A DNA stretch of 64,000 bases. Origin: Candidatus Eiseniibacteriota bacterium. GTDB lineage: Bacteria > Orphanbacterota > Orphanbacteria > Orphanbacterales > Orphanbacteraceae. The stretch spans positions 1,055,231 through 1,119,230 of the forward strand of contig JAJCZU010000004.1 of assembly GCA_029262235.1 (NCBI GenBank), read 5' to 3'. This document shows, piece after piece, positions 33,922-46,251 of the stretch. Below the pieces are notes generated by a model that was not told the origin of the DNA, made no database searches, and was given only the letters and a program-made list of their open reading frames with translations. The translations under genes were made by a program, and so were the position numbers. How positions within the stretch are numbered: the first letter of the stretch is position 1; each line of letters begins with the position of its first letter.

Positions 33922-34745
33922 CTTTGACTGCAAGGAAACCTCCCCGCGAGTCCGGATTTTATCCGAGCAGGAAACTGGGGCAGAATTTTCTCGTGAACCC
34001 GCGCATTCTCGACCGCATTGCGGACGCGGCGTCTCTGACCGGATCCGAAACCGTGCTCGAGATCGGGCCGGGCAAGGGGGCGCTGACGGAGCGGCTCGCC
34101 GCGCGCGCCGGTCGCGTGATCGCGGTCGAGCTCGACAAGCGCCTTGCCGAGGGCCTCGAAAACACGTGGGCCGGGAGCGGGCATGTAACGATTGTTCGTG
34201 GCGATTTCCTGCAATACGATCTGACGCAGGATTTTTCGCCCGAAAGCAGGGGCATCGTGCTCGGAAACGTTCCCTACAGTATTACGTCGCCGATCCTGTT
34301 CCGACTGTTCGAGCAGGCGGCGGTTCTCGACCGCGCCCTGCTGCTCGTGCAGCGCGAGGTTGCCGACCGCATGACGGCCGGCGCCGGAGATCCGGGCCGC
34401 GGAAGGCTCGGCGTGGCCGTCGAGTACTACGCAAGGGCCGCCCGGCTGTTTCTCGTCGGCCCCGCCAACTTTCGGCCGCGCCCCCGGGTCGACTCGGCCC
34501 TCGTATCCCTTCGTTTTCACACGGACCGGGAAGAACCCGCGTTCGAGCAGCGGCTGTTCGCGCTGGTCAAGCGGCTCTTCCGCGAGCGCCGCAAGATGAT
34601 TCGCGCGGGGCTTCGTGAATGGCGCCCCGACCTGGACACCGAGTCGGTCGAGGCCGCATCGGGCGTCGCGCTGACCAGGCGCCCCGAAACATTGACGCTC
34701 GACGAATGGCGCTCGCTCGCCCGCGCCGCGGGAGACCCCGCATGA
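33918..34745 (+). CDS. rsmA: 16S rRNA dimethyladenosine transferase RsmA/KsgA
   Basis: A 275-residue methyltransferase that dimethylates two adenines near the 3' end of 16S rRNA during small-subunit assembly. Visible motifs are KLGQNFLVNP at the N-terminus, the SAM-binding LEIGPGKGALTERL, the acidic VIAVELDKRL and the catalytic GNVPYSI (NxPY). The start is a TTG overlapping the tatD stop; a second TTG six bases later is possible. Length matches the family. It overlaps the following barrel gene by ATGA. Confidence 0.95.
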   Translation: MTLTARKPPRESGFYPSRKLGQNFLVNPRILDRIADAASLTGSETVLEIGPGKGALTERLAARAGRVIAVELDKRLAEGLENTWAGSGHVTIVRGDFLQYDLTQDFSPESRGIVLGNVPYSITSPILFRLFEQAAVLDRALLLVQREVADRMTAGAGDPGRGRLGVAVEYYARAARLFLVGPANFRPRPRVDSALVSLRFHTDREEPAFEQRLFALVKRLFRERRKMIRAGLREWRPDLDTESVEAASGVALTRRPETLTLDEWRSLARAAGDPA

Positions 34746-36838
34746 GGCCGGCGCGTCTGCTCCTGTTCTTCCTGCTCCTCGTGCCCGCACTCGCGTTCGC
34801 CCAGGTTGACGAACGCCATCTCGACGAGCACGGCCAGGTTCGCAAGGACTCGCTCTGGATCGAACTGATCGCGGGCGATTCCCTCTGGGTGGACTCGGCC
34901 ACCGTCGACTCGCTTCTCGAACTCGACACGCTGCGGACCGAAGAGGCGAAGCAGACGATCCGTCTCTCGGACGTTCCGCGCGGATTCCATCCCAGCTATC
35001 GACTGCAGTTCAACGAACTGCAGACCACGCGCGATATCAACAATCAGTTTCGCATCGCCTATCCGATCGGAAACAACGTGGTCGTTTCGGACACGAGTTC
35101 GTTCGACCTGCGTTCGTCGACGAGCGCGAACCGCGAAACACGAATACGAAGCGACAAGGTCGCGGTCGACTATCTGATCACGAAAACATTCAAGTTCAAC
35201 ATACGTGCCCTGCAGGACGTGAACACGAACATCACGAACGACGTCGACATCACGAAGATCACGGATCGCAAGCTTTCCCTCGGAGCGATCTGGCGCAATA
35301 CGCTGCCACTGGGTTTCCGGCTGAATCTGACGATGAGGGGAACCATGACGGCGCGCGACCGCGAAAACGAGGACGAACGGGGATCCGGGGACGACCTGCG
35401 TCTCGTAACGACGCTCGACGACCGGAACGGGGCGCTCGGACGCATGGGATTCAATCTCAGGTCGCCGAACGCGTTCCCGGTCGAACTCGTACTGACCGGG
35501 GGATCCACGCGAGGGAAGACCCGGATCGAAACGAGCGGCAACGAATCGGAAACCGTCGTCAATGACGACAATCGCGACGCCAGCGACAATATCGACCTCA
35601 CGATAAACTATGAAAAATTCGAGTGGCTCAAGACGAACGTGTCCGTGTCGGCCGATCGATCCACCAAAAACTTCGCTCGTATTCTGGACAACGCGATCGA
35701 AGAGCAGAAGGACAACAACGTCAGTCTCTCGATGCGGACGCGGGGGAAGATCAACGAACGCCTCGACTACCAGAGCACGATCCGCGTCTCGGCGAGCGAG
35801 CGTCGAAACCGGCTCGAGGTCGACCAGAGCCAGGATCGGGACGATCTGCTGTTCGATCTCACGACGAACTACAAGCTGCCTGGCCGCGTGCAATCCAAAT
35901 TCACGATGAAACGGCAGTTCACGAAGGATGTCGATTACGGCGTTACCGCTGAAAATCCGGATTCGCTGTTCCAGTCGGGGCAGACCGTGGACACACATCG
36001 CGGGGAGGTGTCGCTGAATCTGTCGCGCAAAACGTGGAACTACACGACGCTGCGGGCAGCCAGCACGCTCGGCCTCACATCGCGCTTTTTCGTGGACGAT
36101 ACGCAGGACAAGGACGATGTGAGCCGCCGCGCCCAGTTCGGCCTGGACTACAAGAAGCCCGAAGGGAAGCTGGACGGCACCGCGACGTTTTCGATCGACG
36201 AGAACGAATCGGTGAACATCGACCGGTCGCGGTCGGGCGGAAACCAGACCCGGCAGACGATCAAGGTCACGCCGACGATTTCGTACAAGCTGTTCCCGTC
36301 GTTCATTATCCGGAGCTCCTACAACCTGCGGCTCGTATATAATTTCAAGAGCAACCAGAATTCGCAGAATACGATGAGCCGGATCGGCGAGCTGCGGTCG
36401 AGCATGCGCTGGAGCATGGCGCCGAGAACGAAACTGCGCCTCGAGTACCAGTTCAAACGCGATGAAAGCGGGCGCTTCGAAGAAGACGGCAGGCGGCGTA
36501 TTTTCTTTCGCGACGCGGAAACGTCCACGCAGAAGATGCAGCTCGATGTCGATTATCGTACGTTCTACGATATCAAGATCGGCGCCACGCAGTTTTTCGA
36601 AGTGCTGAAACGCTACAACATCCGGCAGGAGAAGCAGCTCGACAACTCGGACCATCGGGCGCGCATTTCGTTCAACGTCGACTGGCAGCAGGAGCTGCCG
36701 AAGAACGCGCGCATTTCGCTCCGGAGCGAGCTTTCGCGCAACGCCAGCATTCCGATCTTTCGGCGTACGTCGTCACTGCCGCAGAAGACCGATCGTACGG
36801 TGTTCGAGGTCCGATCCACGTTCAGCGTGCAGTTCTAG
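34742..36838 (+). CDS. Large predicted outer-membrane beta-barrel protein
   Basis: A 698-residue exported protein (signal peptide MRPARLLLFFLLLVPALAFAQ). From about residue 75 the chain is an almost unbroken series of amphipathic beta-strand-like segments with alternating hydrophobic and charged or polar residues (FNIRALQDVNTNITNDVDI, LDYQSTIRVSASERRNRLEV, RISFNVDWQQELPKNARISL), and it ends FSVQF, a typical outer-membrane C-terminal aromatic signature. The pattern recalls the C-terminal barrel part of large gliding/secretion proteins such as SprA, but it is much shorter and I cannot claim homology. The true start is the ATG at 34742 overlapping rsmA. It precedes a lipoprotein gene by 11 nt. 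Confidence 0.7.
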   Translation: MRPARLLLFFLLLVPALAFAQVDERHLDEHGQVRKDSLWIELIAGDSLWVDSATVDSLLELDTLRTEEAKQTIRLSDVPRGFHPSYRLQFNELQTTRDINNQFRIAYPIGNNVVVSDTSSFDLRSSTSANRETRIRSDKVAVDYLITKTFKFNIRALQDVNTNITNDVDITKITDRKLSLGAIWRNTLPLGFRLNLTMRGTMTARDRENEDERGSGDDLRLVTTLDDRNGALGRMGFNLRSPNAFPVELVLTGGSTRGKTRIETSGNESETVVNDDNRDASDNIDLTINYEKFEWLKTNVSVSADRSTKNFARILDNAIEEQKDNNVSLSMRTRGKINERLDYQSTIRVSASERRNRLEVDQSQDRDDLLFDLTTNYKLPGRVQSKFTMKRQFTKDVDYGVTAENPDSLFQSGQTVDTHRGEVSLNLSRKTWNYTTLRAASTLGLTSRFFVDDTQDKDDVSRRAQFGLDYKKPEGKLDGTATFSIDENESVNIDRSRSGGNQTRQTIKVTPTISYKLFPSFIIRSSYNLRLVYNFKSNQNSQNTMSRIGELRSSMRWSMAPRTKLRLEYQFKRDESGRFEEDGRRRIFFRDAETSTQKMQLDVDYRTFYDIKIGATQFFEVLKRYNIRQEKQLDNSDHRARISFNVDWQQELPKNARISLRSELSRNASIPIFRRTSSLPQKTDRTVFEVRSTFSVQF

Positions 36839-36849
36839 GGGGAACGCCA

Positions 36850-37479
36850 GTGAAAACCGCCACGTCCATCCTGTTCGTCCTTCTGCTGGCGGGGGGGTGT
36901 TTCTTCGAACCGCGCCAGGCCGAAGAGGGGACGGGCGGCCAGACGGAGGTCTGCAGCGTGCCTTCCAGCCCCGACGCGATTCCCCAGGAACTGATCGACG
37001 GCGTGGTGAATATCTCCTGGGACCGGTTTTCGTGTCTCTACGCGGAAGACTTCGTGTTCATCCCCGACGCGGCCGATGTAGTCGATCTCGCCGAGAACGG
37101 CATCACCTACCCGGATCCGTGGGGGCTCGACCTCGAATTCACGACATTCAACGACATCAGAGCGTGTCACAACGGCTCGCTCCGTCAGGTGGGTGCCATC
37201 GAGCTCGTTCTTGACGACATCGACTTCCTGCCCGACGACGACCTGAGCCTCGAGGAGTTCACGGCGAAGTACACACTCACGATCTTTTCGCTCTCCGTCG
37301 AGACGGGGGTGTCCGGGGAATTCGTTTACGAAGGCGTCTGGGAGATCACGACCGTAGAGACCGACGAGGGGTGGAAGATCTCCGAATGGGTCGATCTGCA
37401 GTCGGGGGGCCAGAACCCCACCTGGGGATTTCTCAAGGGGCAGGTCAACGGCGGGGTTGATTTCTGCGACCCGCGTTAA
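36850..37479 (+). CDS. Lipoprotein, probable diverged member of the paralogous array
   Basis: A 209-residue lipoprotein with lipobox LLAGGC (Cys near residue 17) and a GTG start. The order of its parts resembles the eight clear paralogues downstream: a helical start (QELIDGVVNISWDRFSCLYA), EDFVFIPDAADV where they have a D-x-R-Y-x-F segment, beta strands AIELVLDDIDFLP and EFTAKYTLTIFSL, WKISEWVDLQS where they have DWVIVKQEDQ, and PTWGFLKGQV where they have W-x-x-[LIV]-K-x-LFR. Direct identity is low, so the relationship is inferred from layout. An NTF2/SnoaL-like fold is a guess. It is 11 nt behind the barrel gene and probably co-transcribed with it. Confidence 0.6.
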   Translation: MKTATSILFVLLLAGGCFFEPRQAEEGTGGQTEVCSVPSSPDAIPQELIDGVVNISWDRFSCLYAEDFVFIPDAADVVDLAENGITYPDPWGLDLEFTTFNDIRACHNGSLRQVGAIELVLDDIDFLPDDDLSLEEFTAKYTLTIFSLSVETGVSGEFVYEGVWEITTVETDEGWKISEWVDLQSGGQNPTWGFLKGQVNGGVDFCDPR

Positions 37480-37547
37480 GATAATTCTCGTAATGGTTTA
37501 GGATGATGAACCTGGCCACCGGCGCGCAGGCTGACGGGCTCGCTCGC

Positions 37548-37577
37548 TTGACAACCGAACCCGGCGGGTGGTACAGT
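37548..37577 (+). promoter_or_regulatory. Promoter of the paralogous lipoprotein array
   Basis: TTGACA (37548-37553), 18-nt spacer, TACAGT (37572-37577). It lies 137 nt upstream of the first clear array gene, leaving a long leader. Confidence 0.6.
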
Positions 37578-37599
37578 TACGTTCCCCTCGGGTGTCTGC

Positions 37600-37678
37600 G
37601 TATTAAGTCCCACGCATTAATGGGAATACCGTTTGCTTGCAAATCATGGACGACGTCGGCGTGCATTTCGCGCCGACG
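37600..37678 (+). promoter_or_regulatory. Structured 5' leader of the array
   Basis: Two potential hairpins lie between promoter and gene. The first pairs GTATT (37600-37604) with AATAC (37625-37629), and CCCA with TGGG inside it. The second is a perfect 8-bp stem, CGTCGGCG (37654-37661) with CGCCGACG (37671-37678), around a 9-nt loop. The ribosome site GGAGGTG (37701-37707) follows. This may be a protein-binding or attenuation element; I recognise no riboswitch class. Confidence 0.5.
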
Positions 37679-37713
37679 GATCGATAGACCGATCTCTTCT
37701 GGAGGTGACTGCA

Positions 37714-38340
37714 TTGAGCTTCGCTGATCAAAGGAACGCGTTTCTCGTTCCGCTCGCTTTTCTACTCGTCCTCAGTATCGGGGCCGGCTTTCTCGGGTGC
37801 TCCGCCTCTCCGGACGAAGGTAAGCCCGATCCGGGTGACACGACCACGGTCGAGATCGGGCGCGGCACGATCGACAGTCTGCTGAGTACGTTTTTCCCGG
37901 AACACTATTCGAATCAGGACAGCATCGATTATGAAGAGATGCTCGACGACCGGTACTCGTTCCAGAAGCTGCCGGACGAACCGGATGATCCGATCGAGAC
38001 CCTCTTCTGGGACAAGACGGAAGAAATGCGGATCGCCGGGCGCATGTTCCGGGGTACGCCGAACGGCGCCGGCCAGTCCGTCGAATCGATTACGCTGAAT
38101 ATCAACGTCGGGTCCACAACACCTTCGTTCGATACGGACCAGCCCGACGACGAAGACTGGTTCGACGTGGTCGCGATCGTGGACATGACGGTCGTTCTGA
38201 ACGATCCGAGCCAGTCGGACGGTTCCGGTATCCTGAATCTGCTGATCGACTCGGAACAGAAGTTCATCGTCACGGAAGACAAGGACTCGCCCGGCGACTG
38301 GGTCGTCGTGAAGCAGGAAGACCAGGCGCGCATTCAATAG
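37714..38340 (+). CDS. Array lipoprotein A (single domain)
   Basis: A 208-residue lipoprotein. A signal peptide with lipobox GFLGC is followed by a short acidic linker and one copy of the array domain: RGTIDSLLSTFFPEHYSN, then MLDDRYSFQKLP, LFWDKTEEMRIAGRMFRG, SVESITLNINVG, the WFDVVAIVDMTVVLND strand and the NLLIDSEQKFIV strand, ending with DWVVVKQEDQARIQ. It lacks the W-x-x-[LIV]-K-x-LFR tail found on most copies. The TTG start is picked because GGAGGTG lies 6 nt upstream. A long leader precedes it and an intrinsic terminator follows, so it can be expressed alone. The fold may be NTF2/SnoaL-like; function unknown. Confidence 0.8.
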   Translation: MSFADQRNAFLVPLAFLLVLSIGAGFLGCSASPDEGKPDPGDTTTVEIGRGTIDSLLSTFFPEHYSNQDSIDYEEMLDDRYSFQKLPDEPDDPIETLFWDKTEEMRIAGRMFRGTPNGAGQSVESITLNINVGSTTPSFDTDQPDDEDWFDVVAIVDMTVVLNDPSQSDGSGILNLLIDSEQKFIVTEDKDSPGDWVVVKQEDQARIQ

Positions 38341-38388
38341 CATGAGAGCGACTGCCTGCACGAGTTCCCTTCGCGTTTGATTTTTACG

Positions 38389-38420
38389 GGGAGCTTCCCG
38401 ATCGGGAGGCTCCCTTTTTT
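38389..38420 (+). terminator. Intrinsic terminator after array gene A
   Basis: An 11-bp stem GGGAGCTTCCC/GGGAGGCTCCC with one T-G wobble, a GATC tetraloop and six T residues. A textbook Rho-independent terminator that isolates gene A from the rest of the array. Confidence 0.92.
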
Positions 38421-38472
38421 CATTTGCCGCCATGCGCATTCCCGGAGGTTTGAAGAACGATTCCTGGCTACC

Positions 38473-38508
38473 GGTTTGAGGGAGCTACCGTCTCGTTCAC
38501 ATCAAACC
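38473..38508 (+). promoter_or_regulatory. Inverted repeat before the ribosome site of array gene B
   Basis: GGTTTGA (38473-38479) and TCAAACC (38502-38508) form a 7-bp stem with a 22-nt loop, ending 4 nt before GGAGGTGG. Like gene A, this member has a possible hairpin just before its ribosome site, though the two sequences differ. Confidence 0.35.
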
Positions 38509-38524
38509 TGCTGGAGGTGGCAAC

Positions 38525-39157
38525 ATGAAAAACGCCGCACGAAGAAACGACTTCCTGGTTCCGCTGATGACGCCGGTCGCCGTATGGATCGCGATCGGAG
38601 GGTTCGGCTGCGGTACGGTGCCGTGCACGACGCCCGAGTGCACCGGGGGCCGAACGGAAACGCTGAGTGAAATCACGCGGGGCACCGTAGACAGCCTGAT
38701 CGCGGTCTACCTTCCTCACGTCTACTCCAACACCGACAGCGCCGAATATGAGGCGATGCTCGACGACCGCTACTCGTTCCAGAGACTGCCCGACGATCCG
38801 GACACGCCGGTGCAGGACCTCTTCTGGGACAAGTTCGAAGAACTGCGCATCGGCGGCAGGATGTTCCGGGGCACGCCGAACGTTGCCGGCCAGTCGGTCG
38901 AGTCCATCACACTCAATGTAAACGTCGGAAGCAAGACGCCGTCGTTCGACACCGACCAGCCGGACGACGAGGCGTGGATCGACGTCTTCGCGATCGTCGA
39001 CATGACCGTGGTGCTGAACGATCCGGGTCAGTCCGACGGGTCCGGCATCCTGAACCTGCTGATCGATTCCGAACAGAAGTTCGTGGCGGCCGATGATCGC
39101 GATTCCGCGGGCCTCTGGGTCGTCGTGAAGCAGGAGGATCGCGCCCGCATCAACTAG
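38525..39157 (+). CDS. Array lipoprotein B (single domain)
   Basis: A 210-residue paralogue of gene A. The signal sequence is short and the presumed lipobox GFGC is imperfect; a second Cys (TVPC) follows, so lipidation is less certain than for other members. One array domain follows: RGTVDSLIAVYLPHVYSN, MLDDRYSFQRLP, LFWDKFEELRIGGRMFRG, SVESITLNVNVG, VFAIVDMTVVLND, NLLIDSEQKFV. It ends RARIN without the C-terminal W-K-LFR tail, as in A. A and B therefore look like one subgroup. A strong ribosome site (GGAGGTGG) precedes the ATG, and a long hairpin follows the stop. Confidence 0.78.
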   Translation: MKNAARRNDFLVPLMTPVAVWIAIGGFGCGTVPCTTPECTGGRTETLSEITRGTVDSLIAVYLPHVYSNTDSAEYEAMLDDRYSFQRLPDDPDTPVQDLFWDKFEELRIGGRMFRGTPNVAGQSVESITLNVNVGSKTPSFDTDQPDDEAWIDVFAIVDMTVVLNDPGQSDGSGILNLLIDSEQKFVAADDRDSAGLWVVVKQEDRARIN

Positions 39158-39165
39158 AGGGGACG

Positions 39166-39195
39166 GGGGCGGCATGGCCCGTGCCGTGCCGCCCC
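39166..39195 (+). terminator. Hairpin without T-tract after array gene B
   Basis: A 13-bp stem with one wobble (GGGGCGGCA...TGCCGCCCC arms, CCGT tetraloop) 8 nt past the stop codon. No U-run follows, so it may act with Rho or protect the 3' end rather than terminate by itself. Confidence 0.5.
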
Positions 39196-39259
39196 GGATG
39201 TGTTACGCTTCAAGCAGATTCCAGAAGAGACTCCTCACGATTCATAAAAGGACCTGCCG

Positions 39260-39961
39260 ATGCCTGTTCGATCGCTTTTCATGCTTTTCTCACGCCTCTG
39301 CTTCGCCCTCGTTCTCGCCGCGCCCCTGATCCTGGCCGTCGGCTGCGGCGACGACGAGAACCCCGCGGACAATGGCAACGGTGATGGCGACACGACCACG
39401 GTCGAGATCGGGCGCGGCACGATCGACAGCCTGCTGAGCCTGTTCTTCCCGGAGGCTTATTCGAACCACGACAGCATCAAGTACGAAGAGACGCTCGATG
39501 AGCGCTACTCGTTCCAGAAACTGCCCCACGATCCCGACGATCCGATCGAGGAACTGTTCTGGGACAAGGCGGAAGAGCTGCGGATCGCGGGTCGCATGTT
39601 TCGCGGCACAGCCAACGGCGCCGGGCAGTCCGTCGAATCGATCACGCTGAACATCAACGTCGGGGCGACCACGCCGTCATTCGACACGGACCAGCCCGAT
39701 GACGAAGAGTGGTTCGACATCGTGGCCATCATCGACATGACGGTCGTTCTGAACGATCCGAACCAGTCGGACGGCACGGGAATCCTGAACCTGCTGATCG
39801 ACTCGGAGCAGAAGTTCATCGTGACGGCCGAGGACGACGGCGCGGGCGACTGGGTGATCGTGAAGCAGGAAGACCAGCAACGGATCAACAAGGGGCCGAA
39901 GCCCGGCGCGCCGAACACGGCAGGTTCGGCCTGGAGCGGGCTCAAGAGTCTCTTTCGCTGA
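39260..39961 (+). CDS. Array lipoprotein C (single domain with tail motif)
   Basis: A 233-residue lipoprotein with lipobox LAVGC followed by GDDENPADNGNGDGDTTTV, the acidic linker shared with D and E. The single array domain starts RGTIDSLLSLFFPEAYSN and includes LFWDKAEELRIAGRMFRG, SVESITLNINVG, IVAIIDMTVVLNDP and NLLIDSEQKFIVT. After the QEDQQRI end of the domain comes a 24-residue tail finishing SAWSGLKSLFR, the first array copy of the tail motif. AAGGA precedes the ATG. From here to H the spacers are 22-62 nt, so C-H are likely one transcript. Confidence 0.82.
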   Translation: MPVRSLFMLFSRLCFALVLAAPLILAVGCGDDENPADNGNGDGDTTTVEIGRGTIDSLLSLFFPEAYSNHDSIKYEETLDERYSFQKLPHDPDDPIEELFWDKAEELRIAGRMFRGTANGAGQSVESITLNINVGATTPSFDTDQPDDEEWFDIVAIIDMTVVLNDPNQSDGTGILNLLIDSEQKFIVTAEDDGAGDWVIVKQEDQQRINKGPKPGAPNTAGSAWSGLKSLFR

Positions 39962-40011
39962 TGAGCGGAGGCGGCTCCTGTAACGCGCCCCATTATCCTG
40001 AAGGGAAAATC

Positions 40012-41256
40012 ATGAGATTGCGATCCAGACACGTCGCGAGCCTGTTCGTGGCGCTCGCCGTCGCACTGCCGGCGTTGTTCACCGGGTGCGGCGACGACAA
40101 CAATCCCGCGGACCCGGGGAACGGCGACGGCGACACGACCACGGTAAGCGCCGGACGCGGCACGATCGACAGCCTGCTGAGTCAGTTCTTCCCCGAGGTC
40201 TACTCGAACCGGAAATACGACGCCTACGCAAAGATGCTCGACAGCCGTTACCAGTTCCGCAAGCTCGCCGACTTTCCGGGCCAGTTCGACAACGAACGGA
40301 TCTGGGATCGCGACGAAGAACTCAGCATCGCGCGGGTCATGTTCGACGGAACGGCGAATGCGAACCGGCAGAGCGTCGAATCGATCACGCTGAATATTAA
40401 TGTGGGCTCAACTACGCCCTCTGACCACGCCGACGAACCGGGCAACGAAGAGTGGTTCGATGTCGTAGCGATCGTCGACATGACCGTTGTCATAAGCGAT
40501 CCCACACAGGACGACGGCACCGGCATTCTGAATCTTCTTGTCGACTCGAATCAGAACTTCGTCGTAACCGAAGACGCAGACTCGCCCGGCGACTGGGTCG
40601 TCGTGCGCCAGGAGGACCGGTCAAGCATCGAGAAGAGCGTGCCCGGCGACGGCGCCACCGAAGAAACGAGCTGGGGCGCCATCAAGGATCTCTTCCGCGT
40701 GGCCGCAAGCGGCCGGAACACGATCGACGAACTCATCGAGGAACACTTCCCCGAAGTCTACGAACGCCGGCTCTACGCGGACTACGCGAACATGCTCGAC
40801 CCGCGTTACACGTTTCAGAAGCTGCCGGACGATCCCGACCAGCCCGTCAGTGAACTGTTCTGGGACAAGTCGGAAGAACTCCAGATTACCGAGCGTATGT
40901 TCGACGGCGTTCCGAATCTTTCCGGCCAGCGGGTAAAGTCGATCTCGCTCAACATCCAGAACGGCGACATTTCACCCTCGCTCGATACGGACCAGGGGCC
41001 CGGCGAAGAGTGGTTCGACGTGCGATCGATCATTGATCTCACGGTCGTGCTGCACGAGCCGAGTCAGTCCGACGGTACCGGGATCCTGAATCTGCTGATC
41101 GACTCGGAGCAGAAGTTCATCGTCACCGCCGACCCCGATTCCCCGAACGACTGGGTGATCGTGAAGCAGGAAGATCAGCAGAGCATCGGCAAGGCCGGCG
41201 GCTCAGGTGCGACCGAGGAAGCGAGCTGGAGCGACGTCAAAGGTCTGTTCCGGTAG
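40012..41256 (+). CDS. Array lipoprotein D (two domains)
   Basis: A 414-residue lipoprotein with lipobox LFTGC and linker GDDNNPADPGNGDGDTTTV. It has two array domains: one at about 49-205 (RGTIDSLLSQFFPEVYSN, WDRDEELSIARVMFDGTAN) and one at about 237-395 (NTIDELIEEHFPEVYERR, LFWDKSEELQITERMFDG). Each is followed by the tail motif: TSWGAIKDLFR between them and ASWSDVKGLFR at the end, so the gene looks like two single-domain genes joined in frame. Its second half is close to the second half of F: 31 consecutive residues from NLLIDSEQKF to QEDQQ are identical. ATG 40012 has GAAGGG upstream; the frame is open further but that is shadow of gene C. Confidence 0.82.
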   Translation: MRLRSRHVASLFVALAVALPALFTGCGDDNNPADPGNGDGDTTTVSAGRGTIDSLLSQFFPEVYSNRKYDAYAKMLDSRYQFRKLADFPGQFDNERIWDRDEELSIARVMFDGTANANRQSVESITLNINVGSTTPSDHADEPGNEEWFDVVAIVDMTVVISDPTQDDGTGILNLLVDSNQNFVVTEDADSPGDWVVVRQEDRSSIEKSVPGDGATEETSWGAIKDLFRVAASGRNTIDELIEEHFPEVYERRLYADYANMLDPRYTFQKLPDDPDQPVSELFWDKSEELQITERMFDGVPNLSGQRVKSISLNIQNGDISPSLDTDQGPGEEWFDVRSIIDLTVVLHEPSQSDGTGILNLLIDSEQKFIVTADPDSPNDWVIVKQEDQQSIGKAGGSGATEEASWSDVKGLFR

Positions 41257-41288
41257 GGGCGTGTGCGCGTCAAACTAAAGAGGGATTC

Positions 41289-42530
41289 ATGAATCGTCAA
41301 TGGAATCGTATCAAGAGCCTGCTTCTCACGCTCACGCTCGCGCTGCCGGTGCTGCTGATCGGTTGCGGGGATGACAAGAACCCGACGAGCCAGGACAACG
41401 GGGACGGTGACACGACGACGGTGGAAATCGGTCGAGGCACGATCGACAGTCTGCTCTCGGTCTACTTTCCCGAGTACTACACGAACCGGAATCTCGATGC
41501 CTGCGCGGCCATGCTCGACGACCGCTACATGTTCCAGCGGCTCCCGAACGACCCGGGCGAGCCTGTCGATAACCTGGTCTGGGATCGCGACGAGGAACTG
41601 GCCATTGCAAAGGTCATGTTCGACGGCACGGCGAACGCGAACGGGCAGTCGGTCGAGTCGATCACGCTGAATATCAACGTGGGGTCAATCGTGCCGTCGG
41701 TCCATCCGGATGAACCGGCCGACGAAGAGTGGTTCGATGTCCTTGCGATCGTCGACATGACGGTCGTACTGAACGACCCGAATCAGAGTGACGGTACGGG
41801 GATTTTGAATGTGCTGATCGACTCGGAGCAGAAGTTCGTCGTTACCGAGGACGCGGACTCGCCCGGCGACTGGGTCTGCGTGCGCCAGGAGGACCGGAAC
41901 CGCATCAATCGAGGCGTGCCGGGTGATGGTGCGACGGAAGACGCGGCCTGGAGCGACATCAAGAGCCTCTTCCGCGTCGCCGCAAGCAAACGCGGTACGA
42001 TCAGCGAGCTGCTGACCGAGTACTTCCCCGAAGTGTACGAACGCAAGCTCCACGCCGACTACGCGAGCATGCTCGAACCCCGATACACGTTTCAGAAACT
42101 GCCTGACGATCCGGATCAGCCGATCGACGACCTGTTCTGGAACAAGTCTGAGGAGCTGCGGATTACCCGCAGGATGTTCAACGGGAAAGCGAGCGATGCA
42201 GGTCATCGGGTGCGATGGATCGCGCTCAATATTCAAAACGAGGCTGTGACTCCGTCCTTCGACACCGACCAGCAGCCGGGCGATGAGTGGTTCGACGTGC
42301 TTTCGACGATCGATCTCGTCGTCCAGGTGAACGACCCGAGCCAGTCGGACGGTACGGGTCTCTTGAACCTGCTGATCGATGCGAGTCAGAGATTCATCGT
42401 CGCGGCCGACCCGGATTCCCCGGACGAATGGGTGATCGTGAAGCAGGAAGACCAGGGGCGAATCAACAAGGGCGGCATCTCGGCGACCGAGGAGACCAGC
42501 TGGGGAGCGGTCAAGGATCTGTTCCGCTAG
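41289..42530 (+). CDS. Array lipoprotein E (two domains)
   Basis: A 413-residue lipoprotein, lipobox LLIGC then GDDKNPTSQDNGDGDTTTV. The first domain (RGTIDSLLSVYFPEYYTN, WDRDEELAIAKVMFDGTAN) is closest to the first domain of D; both use WDRDEEL rather than FWDKTEEL. The second (GTISELLTEYFPEVYERK, LFWNKSEELRITRRMFNG) parallels the second domain of D. Tail motifs follow both: AAWSDIKSLFR and TSWGAVKDLFR. The shared two-domain plan and junction (LFRVAASKR here, LFRVAASGR in D) show that D and E descend from one already fused gene. The gap from D is 32 nt. Confidence 0.82.
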   Translation: MNRQWNRIKSLLLTLTLALPVLLIGCGDDKNPTSQDNGDGDTTTVEIGRGTIDSLLSVYFPEYYTNRNLDACAAMLDDRYMFQRLPNDPGEPVDNLVWDRDEELAIAKVMFDGTANANGQSVESITLNINVGSIVPSVHPDEPADEEWFDVLAIVDMTVVLNDPNQSDGTGILNVLIDSEQKFVVTEDADSPGDWVCVRQEDRNRINRGVPGDGATEDAAWSDIKSLFRVAASKRGTISELLTEYFPEVYERKLHADYASMLEPRYTFQKLPDDPDQPIDDLFWNKSEELRITRRMFNGKASDAGHRVRWIALNIQNEAVTPSFDTDQQPGDEWFDVLSTIDLVVQVNDPSQSDGTGLLNLLIDASQRFIVAADPDSPDEWVIVKQEDQGRINKGGISATEETSWGAVKDLFR

Positions 42531-42592
42531 CGGAATCGGATGAATCGAGGAGTGCGGTCCACACGGGAGGCGTGCCGCCGAAGGAGGCTTCG

Positions 42593-43915
42593 ATGAGGCT
42601 GTTCGTTCGCAATGGCTGCGCTGGTGTCGCGCCGGCGATCCCGCGGATCGCTCGCGTCGCTCGCGTCGCGCGCGCCGTGCTGCTCCCGCTCACCTTCGTG
42701 CTGCCGGCGCTCCTCATCGGCTGTGGCGACGACAGCAATCCCTCCGATCCCGCCGGCGGCACGCAAGACACTACCGGTACTTGTGGCGCCCGCGCAGGCG
42801 ACAGCCTGGTCTCCGTTTACTTCCCCTGCGTCTTTACGAACCAGGACAGCGCCGGGTTCGAACAGATGCTCGATGACCGGTACACTTTCGTGAAGCTTCC
42901 CGCATTCCCCGGTCAACCCGAACGAGATCGAATCTGCGATCGTGAAGATGTTCTCCGCATTGTCGGACGCATGTTCCGCGGGGAGCAGAACCCGGACGGG
43001 CTCTCTGTCGAGTCGATCACGGTGAACATCAATGTAGTGTCGACCACGCCATCGTTCGACATTCGTCAGGAAGTCGACGAGACCTGGTTCGACGTTGTCG
43101 CGATCGTCGACATGACGGTCGTCCTGAACGATTCGAACAGCACCGACGGAACCGGGATTCTGAATCTACTGATCGACTCGAATCAGAAGTTCGTCATCAC
43201 CCAGGATGTCAATTCGCCCGGTGAGTGGGTGATCGTGAAGCAGGAGGACCAGGCGCGAATCAACCGGTTGAGCGTCGCCGGCCCGCCGCGCACGGAGAGT
43301 TCGACCTGGACGCAGCTCCTGTCTCTCTTCGACTGGACCGATGAAACCGGCGGCGATGGAAACGATGTGTCCCGGGCAACCATTCCCGATCTGCTGCACG
43401 GCTGGTTCCCGTACGTTTACTCCCATCAGGACAGTGCCGGTTACGATCTGGCGCTGGACGATCGTTACACTTTCCAGAGGCTCCCGGACGACCCGGATGA
43501 TCCTGACGAAGATTTGTTCTGGGATAAGACGGAAGAAGCGCGGATCGCCGGCAGGATGTTCCGGGGGACACCGAATGACTCCGGGCAGTCGGTCGAGTCG
43601 ATCACGCTGAACATCAACGTGGGAAGTACCGTGCCCTCGTTTGACGTCGATCAGCCGCCCGATGAAGAGTGGTTCGACGTGGTTACGATCGTCGACATGA
43701 CAGTCGTACTGAACGACCCGAACCTGTCGGACGGAACCGGCATCCTGAACCTGCTGATCGATTCCGAGCAGAAGTTCATCGTCACCGCCGACCCCGACTC
43801 CCCTAACGACTGGGTGATCGTGAAGCAGGAAGATCAGCAGCGCATCCAGAAGGCCGGCGGGTCGCAGGCGACCGAGGAAGCGAGCTGGAGCGACGTCAAG
43901 GGACTGTTCCGGTAG
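42593..43915 (+). CDS. Array lipoprotein F (two domains, different junction)
   Basis: A 440-residue lipoprotein. Its N-terminus carries a short repeat (RIARVARVARA) before the signal core and lipobox LLIGC, then GDDSNPSDPAGG. The first domain has CGARAGDSLVSVYFPCVFTN, MLDDRYTFVKLP and the odd DREDVLRIVGRMFRG; the second has ATIPDLLHGWFPYVYSHQ and LFWDKTEEARIAGRMFRG. The middle tail is diverged (STWTQLLSLFD) and the linker unlike that of D/E, so the domain fusion here probably arose separately. The second half ends ASWSDVKGLFR and is nearly the same as D's end. AAGGAGG precedes the ATG. Confidence 0.82.
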   Translation: MRLFVRNGCAGVAPAIPRIARVARVARAVLLPLTFVLPALLIGCGDDSNPSDPAGGTQDTTGTCGARAGDSLVSVYFPCVFTNQDSAGFEQMLDDRYTFVKLPAFPGQPERDRICDREDVLRIVGRMFRGEQNPDGLSVESITVNINVVSTTPSFDIRQEVDETWFDVVAIVDMTVVLNDSNSTDGTGILNLLIDSNQKFVITQDVNSPGEWVIVKQEDQARINRLSVAGPPRTESSTWTQLLSLFDWTDETGGDGNDVSRATIPDLLHGWFPYVYSHQDSAGYDLALDDRYTFQRLPDDPDDPDEDLFWDKTEEARIAGRMFRGTPNDSGQSVESITLNINVGSTVPSFDVDQPPDEEWFDVVTIVDMTVVLNDPNLSDGTGILNLLIDSEQKFIVTADPDSPNDWVIVKQEDQQRIQKAGGSQATEEASWSDVKGLFR

Positions 43916-43969
43916 CAGAGGTCCGGGCATGCGCGATCGACTAGTTCTGAGAGTAAGAAGGCAGGTCCC

Positions 43970-44623
43970 ATGAGGATGTTTCTACTTTTGCTCGCGGTTC
44001 TCCTGGTAGCAGGTTGCGGCGGCGACAGCAATCCGTCGGATCCCAGCGCCAACAACGAGCCGGCCCCGCCGCCGGAGCGCGCGACGATCGACTCGCTCAT
44101 CACGGCGTACTTCCCGTATTACTATTCGCGCCGGGACAGCGCCGCGTACGATGCGATGCTGCTGGACGATTTCCATTTTCATAAAGGCGATCCTGACAAT
44201 CCCGTCGAAGATCTCTACTGGGACAAGACCGAGGAGCTAAACATGGCGGGGCGGATGTTTCGCGGCACGCCGAACTTCAGGGGTCAGACGCTCGAAGGGC
44301 TGGCGCTTCAGATCCGCGATCTCACGATCGCGCCGTCCGATCATCCGGACAAGCCCGCGGAGATCGAGTGGTTCGAAGTCGAATCCAACATCGAACTGTT
44401 CGCTACGCTCCGGGATCCGAACGCTTCGGACGGGTCGGGCTACCTGTTCCTGGCGATCCAATCGCCGCAGACATTTATCGTGGCACCCGATCCGGCTTCT
44501 CCCGGTGACTGGGGGCTGGTGCACCATTTCGACCGGGGGGCCGCGCAATCGAGGACAGGGGGATCGGACGGCGGCGGGGCCGTGGACGCGAGCTGGTCCG
44601 ATCTGAAGGGTCTCTTTCGGTAG
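43970..44623 (+). CDS. Array lipoprotein G (single, diverged domain)
   Basis: A 217-residue lipoprotein with lipobox LVAGC, then GGDSNPSDPSANN. The one domain is recognisable but diverged: ATIDSLITAYFPYYYSRR, MLLDDFHFHKGDPDN, LYWDKTEELNMAGRMFRG, then TLEGLALQIRDLTI in place of SVESITLNINVG. The NLLIDSEQKFIV strand reads YLFLAIQSPQTFIV, and QEDQ is replaced by VHHFDRG. The tail ASWSDLKGLFR is intact. Conservation of the tail while the body drifts suggests the tail is functionally important. Confidence 0.8.
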   Translation: MRMFLLLLAVLLVAGCGGDSNPSDPSANNEPAPPPERATIDSLITAYFPYYYSRRDSAAYDAMLLDDFHFHKGDPDNPVEDLYWDKTEELNMAGRMFRGTPNFRGQTLEGLALQIRDLTIAPSDHPDKPAEIEWFEVESNIELFATLRDPNASDGSGYLFLAIQSPQTFIVAPDPASPGDWGLVHHFDRGAAQSRTGGSDGGGAVDASWSDLKGLFR

Positions 44624-44645
44624 TAAAATGTGGAATGGCTACGTC

Positions 44646-45311
44646 ATGAAAATTCAAATCTTTCTCCTGCTCGCCGTTTGCTTTGCCGGCTGTGGCGGCG
44701 ACAGCAATCCGACAACGCCCGAGAACGAGGCGCCGGAGCCGAGTGGACGAGGCACGATCGACAGTTTACTTGCTGTCACGCTTCCCCTGGTCTACACGGC
44801 CGGCGACTACTATGAATACGCGAACCTGCTGGACCGGCGATACACGTTTCAAAGACTCTCGCGCGATCGCAACGTTCCCATGGAGGAGCTGATATGGGAT
44901 CGTCGCGAGGAATTGATCATTGCTGACGAGATCTTCAGCGGTCGGACGAATTCCAGAGGCCAGGACGTAGAGTCCATGACCCTGTCGATCGGGGCGCAAT
45001 ATACTACGGCTTATGACGATCCGGACGAACCGGCCGGCGAGGAATGGACAGAGGTCTGGACCACGATCGACCTGCACGTGCTGATCAATGACCCGCTCCG
45101 GCCGGGGGGAAACGGCTTCCTGAACCTGCTGATCGACTCTCGGCAGGTTTTCGTTGTGAGGCCTGATCCGGAGTCCCGGGGAGACTGGATTATCGTGAAG
45201 CAGCGGGATGAATTCAGAATCAACAAGGGCGCGACAGGGTCTTCAACAGAAGAGGCTTTCTGGAGCGACCTGAAGGAGCTTTTTCGGCCGAATGGCGAGT
45301 ACGGTCCATGA
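44646..45311 (+). CDS. Array lipoprotein H (single, most diverged domain)
   Basis: A 221-residue lipoprotein, lipobox CFAGC then GGDSNPTTPENEAPEPSG. The domain begins RGTIDSLLAVTLPLVYTA and keeps LLDRRYTFQRLSRD, the IWDRREELIIADEIFSG segment, NLLIDSRQVFVV and DWIIVKQRDEFRIN. The tail is AFWSDLKELFR followed by five extra residues. The ATG at 44646 is chosen because it begins directly with the signal peptide; an in-frame ATG at 44628 is possible, and neither has a clear ribosome site, so coupling to G (about 22 nt upstream) is likely. It is the last array member. Confidence 0.78.
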   Translation: MKIQIFLLLAVCFAGCGGDSNPTTPENEAPEPSGRGTIDSLLAVTLPLVYTAGDYYEYANLLDRRYTFQRLSRDRNVPMEELIWDRREELIIADEIFSGRTNSRGQDVESMTLSIGAQYTTAYDDPDEPAGEEWTEVWTTIDLHVLINDPLRPGGNGFLNLLIDSRQVFVVRPDPESRGDWIIVKQRDEFRINKGATGSSTEEAFWSDLKELFRPNGEYGP

Positions 45312-45477: not shown

Positions 45478-46251
45478 ATGAGGACAGCCCTGCTTGTGGC
45501 CTGGCTGTCTCTTTTTGTGGGGGGGATCGGGTACAATCCGATTCTCGCGGAGCCCGCGGCCGGCACACAACATCAAGAGACAACGGGTGAAATCGCGATC
45601 GTCGTAGACGACTTCGGATACTTCATGAACGAAACCGTTCATGGTTTTCTCGCGCTCGACATTCCGGTCACGATTTCGGTGATTCCGAGCCTGCGCTACT
45701 CGGCGCATATCGCGGACGCGGCGTGGGCGGCTGACAAAGAAGTGATGGCGCATCTTCCGATGGAGCCGATTGATTACCCGGCGAAAAATCCGGGCGGGTC
45801 GGCGCTTTTCGTGAAGTATGACGACGCGGAACTGCGGGGGCGCATCATCGCCGCGCTCGATTCGTATCCGCGCTTCGTCGGCGTGAACAATCATATGGGG
45901 TCGCGCGCCATGCAGGACCCGCGGCTTCTCGGCATCCTGATGAAGGAGATCGAGGGGCGGGGGCTCTTCTTCGTCGACTCGAAGACGATACCGGGCGAGC
46001 GGCCGCGCACGATCGCGAAAGATCACGGCGTGCGCTTCGGTGAGAATCGACTGTTCTGGGACACGGGCCTCAGTACGCCCGATGAAATACGCACGAATCT
46101 CGACCGGCTCGCGCAGATTGCGCGAAGGGGCGGGCGTGCCATTGCGATCGGTCATCCGCGGGCGATTTCGCTCGCGATCCTGAAAGAAAAGCTTCCCGAG
46201 CTGAAGAAGCTCGGTATCCGGTTCGTGAAGGTGAGCGACATCGTTCACTGA
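45478..46251 (+). CDS. YibQ-like divergent polysaccharide deacetylase-fold protein
   Basis: A 257-residue exported protein (signal peptide in the first 25 residues). The body matches the divergent polysaccharide deacetylase family (YibQ/DUF610): GEIAIVVDDFGY, DIPVTISVIPSLRYS, VMAHLPMEPIDYP, NNHMGSRAMQD, LFFVDSKT and AIAIGHPRAISLAIL. The NHMGS and DDFG motifs keep likely metal ligands, but no substrate is known. Members often sit beside cell-wall or division genes. AAGGAG precedes the ATG. It is 36 nt upstream of secD. Confidence 0.88.
   Translation: MRTALLVAWLSLFVGGIGYNPILAEPAAGTQHQETTGEIAIVVDDFGYFMNETVHGFLALDIPVTISVIPSLRYSAHIADAAWAADKEVMAHLPMEPIDYPAKNPGGSALFVKYDDAELRGRIIAALDSYPRFVGVNNHMGSRAMQDPRLLGILMKEIEGRGLFFVDSKTIPGERPRTIAKDHGVRFGENRLFWDTGLSTPDEIRTNLDRLAQIARRGGRAIAIGHPRAISLAILKEKLPELKKLGIRFVKVSDIVH

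Follow-up and report, generated by a model that had tools for sequence, protein, structure and literature searches.

A tandem array of lipoproteins with a predicted NTF2-like fold and a short C-terminal tag shared with unrelated exported proteins

In the window, that is, the whole stretch of 64,000 nucleotides of DNA that was analysed, eight genes for lipoproteins of one predicted NTF2-like fold lie in a row, and five of them terminate in a nine-residue motif, here called the tag, that also sits on about 70 other, unrelated exported proteins of the same genome. The explanation that we favour, and regard as reasonably probable, is that the array is an expansion of one- and two-domain NTF2-like lipoproteins and that the tag directs sorting or attachment in a way linked to type IX secretion. 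The sorting function, the link to type IX secretion and a ligand of the NTF2-like domain are what we infer, and the type IX part is the weaker half of the explanation. The computations give good support to the array, the predicted fold, the synteny and the tag, to its terminal place, its link with exported proteins and its co-occurrence with type IX C-terminal domains, and they show one protein body with alternative ends. The genes of the locus are the following:

34619-36838, plus strand: OMP, 739 aa, from its sequence only predicted to be outer-membrane beta-barrel-like; an orthologue stands directly upstream of Z in all genomes of the phylum that were compared
36850-37479, plus strand: Z, divergent NTF2-like lipoprotein with the C-terminus TWGFLKGQVNGGVDFCDPR, a tag-like core plus tail
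37714-38340, plus strand: A, single-domain NTF2-like lipoprotein, untagged (core type)
38525-39157, plus strand: B, single-domain NTF2-like lipoprotein, untagged
39260-39961, plus strand: C, single-domain NTF2-like lipoprotein with C-terminal tag
40012-41256, plus strand: D, two-domain NTF2-like lipoprotein, tagged
41289-42530, plus strand: E, two-domain NTF2-like lipoprotein, tagged
42593-43915, plus strand: F, two-domain NTF2-like lipoprotein, tagged
43970-44623, plus strand: G, divergent single-domain NTF2-like lipoprotein, tagged
44628-45311, plus strand: H, divergent single-domain NTF2-like lipoprotein
45478-46251, plus strand: divergent, polysaccharide-deacetylase-like gene, followed by secD and secF; named from the sequence and not by a family search

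The array A-H consists of eight consecutive plus-strand open reading frames (ORFs) with lipoprotein signals (37714-45311) and holds eleven domain copies, one each in A, B, C, G, and H and two each in D, E, and F, which are 42-74% identical to A when aligned full-length. The ORFs and the alignment to A thus bear out an earlier, sequence-only reading of this DNA, which had claimed eight such genes with eleven domain copies; its gene positions stood except for two start codons, which were corrected to 40012 (D) and 42593 (F). The ninth gene of low identity that it had suspected at 36850 is Z, a distant member of the family, as a profile made without Z finds Z-type genes beside A-type genes elsewhere. 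In A-H and in Z a cysteine follows a hydrophobic stretch, mostly in a CGDDxNP-like context, and 4/5 tagged array ORFs pass a rough lipobox rule, F being missed owing to a start that was set too early.

Proteins C-G terminate in W-x-x-[VIL]-K-x-[LM]-F-R and H nearly so, and with its upstream part the consensus of the tag is T-E-E-S-S-W-[SGT]-x-[VIL]-K-x-[LM]-F-R. The earlier reading had overlooked the tag of C-H, which is the most unusual feature of the array, along with its use across the genome and its internal copies (in D, in E and, in degenerate form, in F). The terminal and internal copies are:

39932-39961, plus strand: tag of C, WSGLKSLFR-stop
40672-40698, plus strand: WGAIKDLFR, a former tag, now internal, where D1 joins D2
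41227-41256, plus strand: tag of D, WSDVKGLFR-stop
41949-41975, plus strand: WSDIKSLFR, a former tag, now internal, where E1 joins E2
42501-42530, plus strand: tag of E, WGAVKDLFR-stop
43307-43333, plus strand: WTQLLSLFD, a degenerate internal copy, where F1 joins F2
43886-43915, plus strand: tag of F, WSDVKGLFR-stop
44594-44623, plus strand: tag of G, WSDLKGLFR-stop
45261-45287, plus strand: tag of H, WSDLKELFR, followed by the seven extra residues PNGEYGP

A search with the eleven-copy profile, which was built from the array copies themselves, Z included, gave E-values of 5e-87 to 7e-113 in the own genome and no further full-length domain copy elsewhere in its 4.47 Mb. With the profile lacking Z (A6), the genome's own Z was not recovered at an E-value of 0.001. 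No characterised single-copy family was matched: no Pfam or NCBIfam model covers the array domain, and a PDB sequence search with the array proteins was without a match. Among NTF2-like models of Pfam the best match was SnoaL_3 for G (E 0.28), which is under the cut-off and does not indicate membership at the level of sequence. Library matches of array proteins to LPD13, DUF7189, AZUL, and a phage spike were weak, at chance level, and were discarded. The mature part of C was then modelled with AlphaFold2 together with 14 related sequences drawn from the window and from contig L026 of a sister species, and the resulting model (mean pLDDT 85, pTM 0.79) has the order two helices, strand, helix, and long antiparallel strands (H-H-E-H-E-E-E-E-E), in agreement with the alpha+beta cone of the NTF2-like superfamily, in which N-terminal helices lie on a strongly curved antiparallel sheet. 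Foldseek with this model yielded 92 PDB matches at E <= 0.001, of which those listed were mostly NTF2/cystatin-like. They included 3ejv, 2chc, the CaMKII hub, dioxygenase beta subunits, 3rob, 3soy, Pgp2/Csd6, and PARC6-PDV1, with E-values of 4e-6 to 3e-4 for the named matches and TM-scores of about 0.4-0.7 depending on target length; a viral fold library gave distant NTF2-like matches only. The model and these matches agree with the NTF2/SnoaL-like fold that had been guessed from the sequence. The array thus resembles the NTF2-like/SnoaL/cystatin-like superfamily in predicted fold, through matches to NTF2-like, ketosteroid-isomerase-like, CaMKII-hub, and ring-hydroxylating dioxygenase beta-subunit structures, and differs from it in that a sequence-level family match is missing, no catalytic residues were identified, the proteins are lipidated, the domain occurs singly or doubled and the C-terminus is tagged. 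From the fold, the domain is likely to bind a peptide or ligand at the envelope; none of the results bears out the variable surface binding, the signalling or the coat that the earlier reading had suggested. The last 14 residues of C were modelled as a strand and a helix after a looser linker, with a pLDDT of about 87-93 for the tag, which is probably packed on its own domain. The model of two-domain D is of low confidence (pLDDT 53).

The comparison of related genomes shows that the array is no stand-alone invention: it grew in tandem, locally and in one lineage, at an envelope locus that is itself conserved. Within the stretches read, 7/7 genomes of the phylum share the gene order metG-tatD-ksgA-OMP-Z-(NTF2 lipoprotein)-deacetylase-secD-secF. 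When copies at the locus were counted, other genera of the phylum had one to three, namely one untagged copy in G002, G003, G005, and G006 and three untagged copies in G004, as compared with eight in the own genome; the sister species G001 shows at least three genes of this kind (its contig breaks off inside C, after Z, A, and B). The seven genomes sampled represent one family, which makes up the whole phylum as sampled and in which type IX C-terminal domains (CTDs) and SprA are present. Contig L026 of the sister species (JABDJQ010000523.1) is deposited as 'Gemmatimonadetes bacterium'. In part, the conserved two-lipoprotein locus reaches other phyla. The A6 profile finds Z-type genes adjoining A-type genes there, and adjoining NTF2-like gene pairs of the Z-A type were seen in G072, G075, G107, G140, G146, and G150, a deacetylase adjoins NTF2-like genes in G007, G075, and G150, and secD is near them in G107 and G109. 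Outside the own family, A6 copies occurred in 18/26 type-IX-positive genomes and in 0/8 type-IX-negative ones, as we grouped them by CTD matches. The conserved OMP-Z-A-deacetylase-secDF locus is a candidate envelope module. The OMP product belongs to no Pfam or NCBIfam family, and a similar gene is recognisable, at low similarity, in G075 and G107. Z-type lipoproteins (36850-37479 in the window; L186, L189, L190, and L203) end in a tag-like manner, WGxx[KR]..., and in G107 with DWGEVKGQFRGR; this end is perhaps an old or altered tag.

The lead to the tag came from the last 19 positions of the profile, which matched many other places in the own genome. A search for the coding pattern of W-x-x-h-K-x-h-[aromatic]-R-stop gave 81 matches in this genome and 0 for the reversed control, and the tag statistics rest on such pattern searches and on DNA stretches fetched from the genome. 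In the 78 distinct tagged ORFs recovered W, K, and R are invariant, though the pattern itself fixes these residues; beyond its demands, F occupies position -2 in 76 of the 78 and T-x-T-E-E-S-S is preferred upstream. In the fetched DNA the motif closes 77 ORFs and lies internally in three (D, E, and H), a ratio that is biased, as the stretches were fetched around terminal matches. The three internal motifs occur in the array only, two at fusion joints (D and E) and one before a seven-residue C-terminal extension (H). By a rough rule 65/73 tagged ORFs outside the array possess a signal sequence, and several of the remaining eight are short fragments or show a signal that is visible by eye. Array proteins have a convincing lipobox, whereas hardly any tagged protein outside the array does. 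The tagged bodies are unrelated to each other and include nine beta-helix proteins, CHRD, plastocyanin, lamin tail, and C-type lectin proteins, and others, most of them unnamed.

Growth of the array by local duplication and in-frame fusion, as the sequence-only reading had proposed, is supported by a tree of the domains and by the D and E joints, which still hold the former C-terminal tag; the internal motifs at these joints support an origin of the two-domain genes from in-frame fusion of tagged genes. Fused relatives with a similar internal tag exist in other genera. Regarding the age classes that had been suggested, the corresponding domains of D and E form pairs and A groups with B, whereas G and H are both divergent and their pairing is unsupported by the tree. 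Within a genus, tagged copies cluster with the untagged one and not with their tagged counterparts in other genera. A tree in which all tagged copies form a single group was rejected (p-AU 0.0008), although the tag columns, which were left in, favour such a group; a single tagged ancestor is rejected with it, unless gene conversion overwrote the domains. Two histories agree with this, repeated gain of the tag or gene conversion that makes the domains of one genome alike. Under either history, a lineage retains the module both with and without the tag, which fits a location signal.

Known CTDs of type IX secretion are of types A, B, and C (PMC10202324). All 12 tag-rich genomes have 62-150 type IX CTD matches each, with many CTDs of type A, as against none in eight genomes without the tag that were picked for comparison. 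Among 186 genomes outside the own family, all five tag-rich ones are found within the 34 that have at least 20 CTD matches, an overlap with a chance of about 2e-4 from which shared ancestry has not been removed, G031 and G178 being of one phylum. As far as tested, the tag-rich state is limited to type-IX-positive genomes, and the relation is one-way, as many genomes rich in type IX CTDs are without the tag. The SprA/Sov translocon is encoded in the own genome (C2:830019-834620, E 9.5e-126) and in every tag-rich genome tested. Two adjoining beta-helix paralogues, 39% identical over 328 aa, end differently, L124 (C10:10269-11396) in the tag and L172 (C10:12372-13673) in a type A CTD, and constitute a natural end-swap on one protein body. 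Like type IX CTDs (TIGR04183/PF18962 for type A, TIGR04131/PF13585 for type B, and type C), the tag is a terminal module of unrelated Sec-exported proteins, and it alternates with a type A CTD on the homologous beta-helix neighbours; unlike a CTD, which is a whole Ig-like domain, it comprises about 9-16 residues with a predicted helix. Neither array nor tagged proteins match a CTD model, in libraries in which no model of type C was identified, and they are not classed as CTD proteins. In the type A CTD one lysine alone is conserved on the surface that faces the translocon (PMC10994853), and this lysine and that of the tag may or may not be counterparts.

In a sample of 193 genomes across the domain, tag matches per genome numbered 22-81 in the own family and 12-40 in G031, G072, G075, G140, and G178, and were near background elsewhere; the tag is frequent in at least four lineages beyond its own. 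In the phylum of G031, 58/58 genomes gave matches, up to 40 each, the low end overlapping background. Single WGSIKA[ML]FR matches in G007, G013, G057, G080, and G161 belong to one kind of small protein with a signal peptide, an FN3-like domain, and the tag. This protein, ending in WGSIKAMFR, is encoded directly downstream of PorD in G007 (L138:2118-3438) and G057 (L140:1996-3768), with a PorV/PorQ-family gene nearby, and stands away from PorD in G013, G080, and G161. PorD was rejected as a constant partner of the tag, having been found in 5/24 genomes searched and adjoining a tagged gene in two.

PEP-CTERM, GlyGly-CTERM, and MYXO-CTERM are sorting tags (PMC3237569, PMC11980579). The tag resembles them as a short C-terminal element on dozens of unrelated exported proteins per genome and differs in having neither a transmembrane segment nor a basic cluster after the motif: the stop codon follows directly, no hydrophobic stretch lies within or after the motif, and the tripartite organisation of PEP-CTERM is not seen. 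NCBIfam NF058595 (invert_tail), tag-like by name, gave weak sub-cut-off matches at the N-terminal lipobox and the CGDDxNP stretch and not at the tag. The tag has no match in Pfam or NCBIfam. We take it for a short and so far undescribed signal for sorting or attachment, which looks like an address label of the cell surface, and no tag of this kind already described in these phyla was found in the open-access literature.

In the explanation that we prefer, tagged proteins would be exported by Sec, after which array proteins would be lipidated and other tagged proteins cleaved by signal peptidase I; an envelope sorting or attachment machinery would then recognise the tag, so that one binding module would reach different places depending on whether it carries the tag. 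This machinery would most likely be, or work with, the type IX apparatus, the tag taking the role of the much larger CTD. Counted against this are the lack of a CTD fold and of a transmembrane segment, so that no known receptor is implied; the internal tags at fusion joints, mostly kept although a signal acting purely at the C-terminus has no use for them; the lipidation of array proteins as opposed to almost all other tagged proteins; PorD, undetected in the own family and adjoining the small tagged protein in 2/5 genomes; and the many genomes rich in type IX CTDs without the tag. The kept joints would also suit a tag by which proteins dock on the NTF2-like lipoproteins; the untagged A and B would be envelope receptors whose open cone binds the amphipathic tag helix of other exported proteins in trans, and C-H would hold their own in cis, an arrangement to which the confidently modelled strand and helix of C, probably packed on its domain, would correspond. 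Foldseek matched 5u9o, the PARC6-PDV1 co-crystal of an NTF2-like domain with a bound partner peptide, and the occurrence of NTF2-family copies outside the own family in 18/26 type-IX-positive as against 0/8 type-IX-negative genomes also points this way. However, G178 has 40 tags and no NTF2-family copy detected with A6, indicating that tag and family are not obligate partners, which counts against the preferred explanation as well, several genomes with the family have tags not above background, and docking in cis was not reproduced in the low-confidence two-domain model. We consider docking unlikely. The NTF2-like lipoproteins may also act as tag reader within a wider proposal, to which we give a low probability, slightly below that of docking: in several little-known phyla the nine-residue tag, free of a transmembrane segment, would serve generally as a code for sorting to the surface, its reader would be an unnamed receptor working with the type IX translocon, and the NTF2-like lipoproteins of the OMP-Z-A locus would form part of the reader, the array being an amplified set.

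A plain expansion of ligand-binding surface lipoproteins, with the tag as a structural cap or a passenger of duplication that has no sorting role, would explain the tandem duplication that is plain in the tree, the retention of the tag inside fused proteins and the occurrence of tandem rows of tagged genes beyond the array as well (five genes on C8 and five on C2). Yet proteins of unrelated folds close with the tag, placed immediately ahead of the stop codon; as far as seen its carriers are exported proteins only, and other phyla have it on other bodies. The passenger reading is weakened because duplication cannot move a tag between unrelated bodies, and we judge this account improbable, a little more so than either of the two preceding ones. 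In general, tail-specific and PDZ proteases read C-terminal peptides, and the tag might mark proteins for degradation or quality control by an envelope protease. Such proteases mostly read apolar C-termini, whereas the tag ends in arginine, and the alternation of tag and type IX CTD on one protein body points to sorting; we regard degradation as very improbable.

A tag so short, carried by up to 81 proteins per genome in several uncultured lineages, would bring dozens of hypothetical surface proteins of each genome together in one set and open the way to a search for whatever reads it. Sorting C-terminal tags have repeatedly led to dedicated machinery, as with sortases, exosortases, and type IX secretion. 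The tandem rows of five tagged genes each lie at C2:1222775-1225464 and C8:333806-336003 of the own genome, and their proteins are short and mostly begin like ELDxDGxLGNGPD. Just beyond the window end, at C4:1119244-1119273, the tag closes an ORF of 46 residues that is apparently a remnant.
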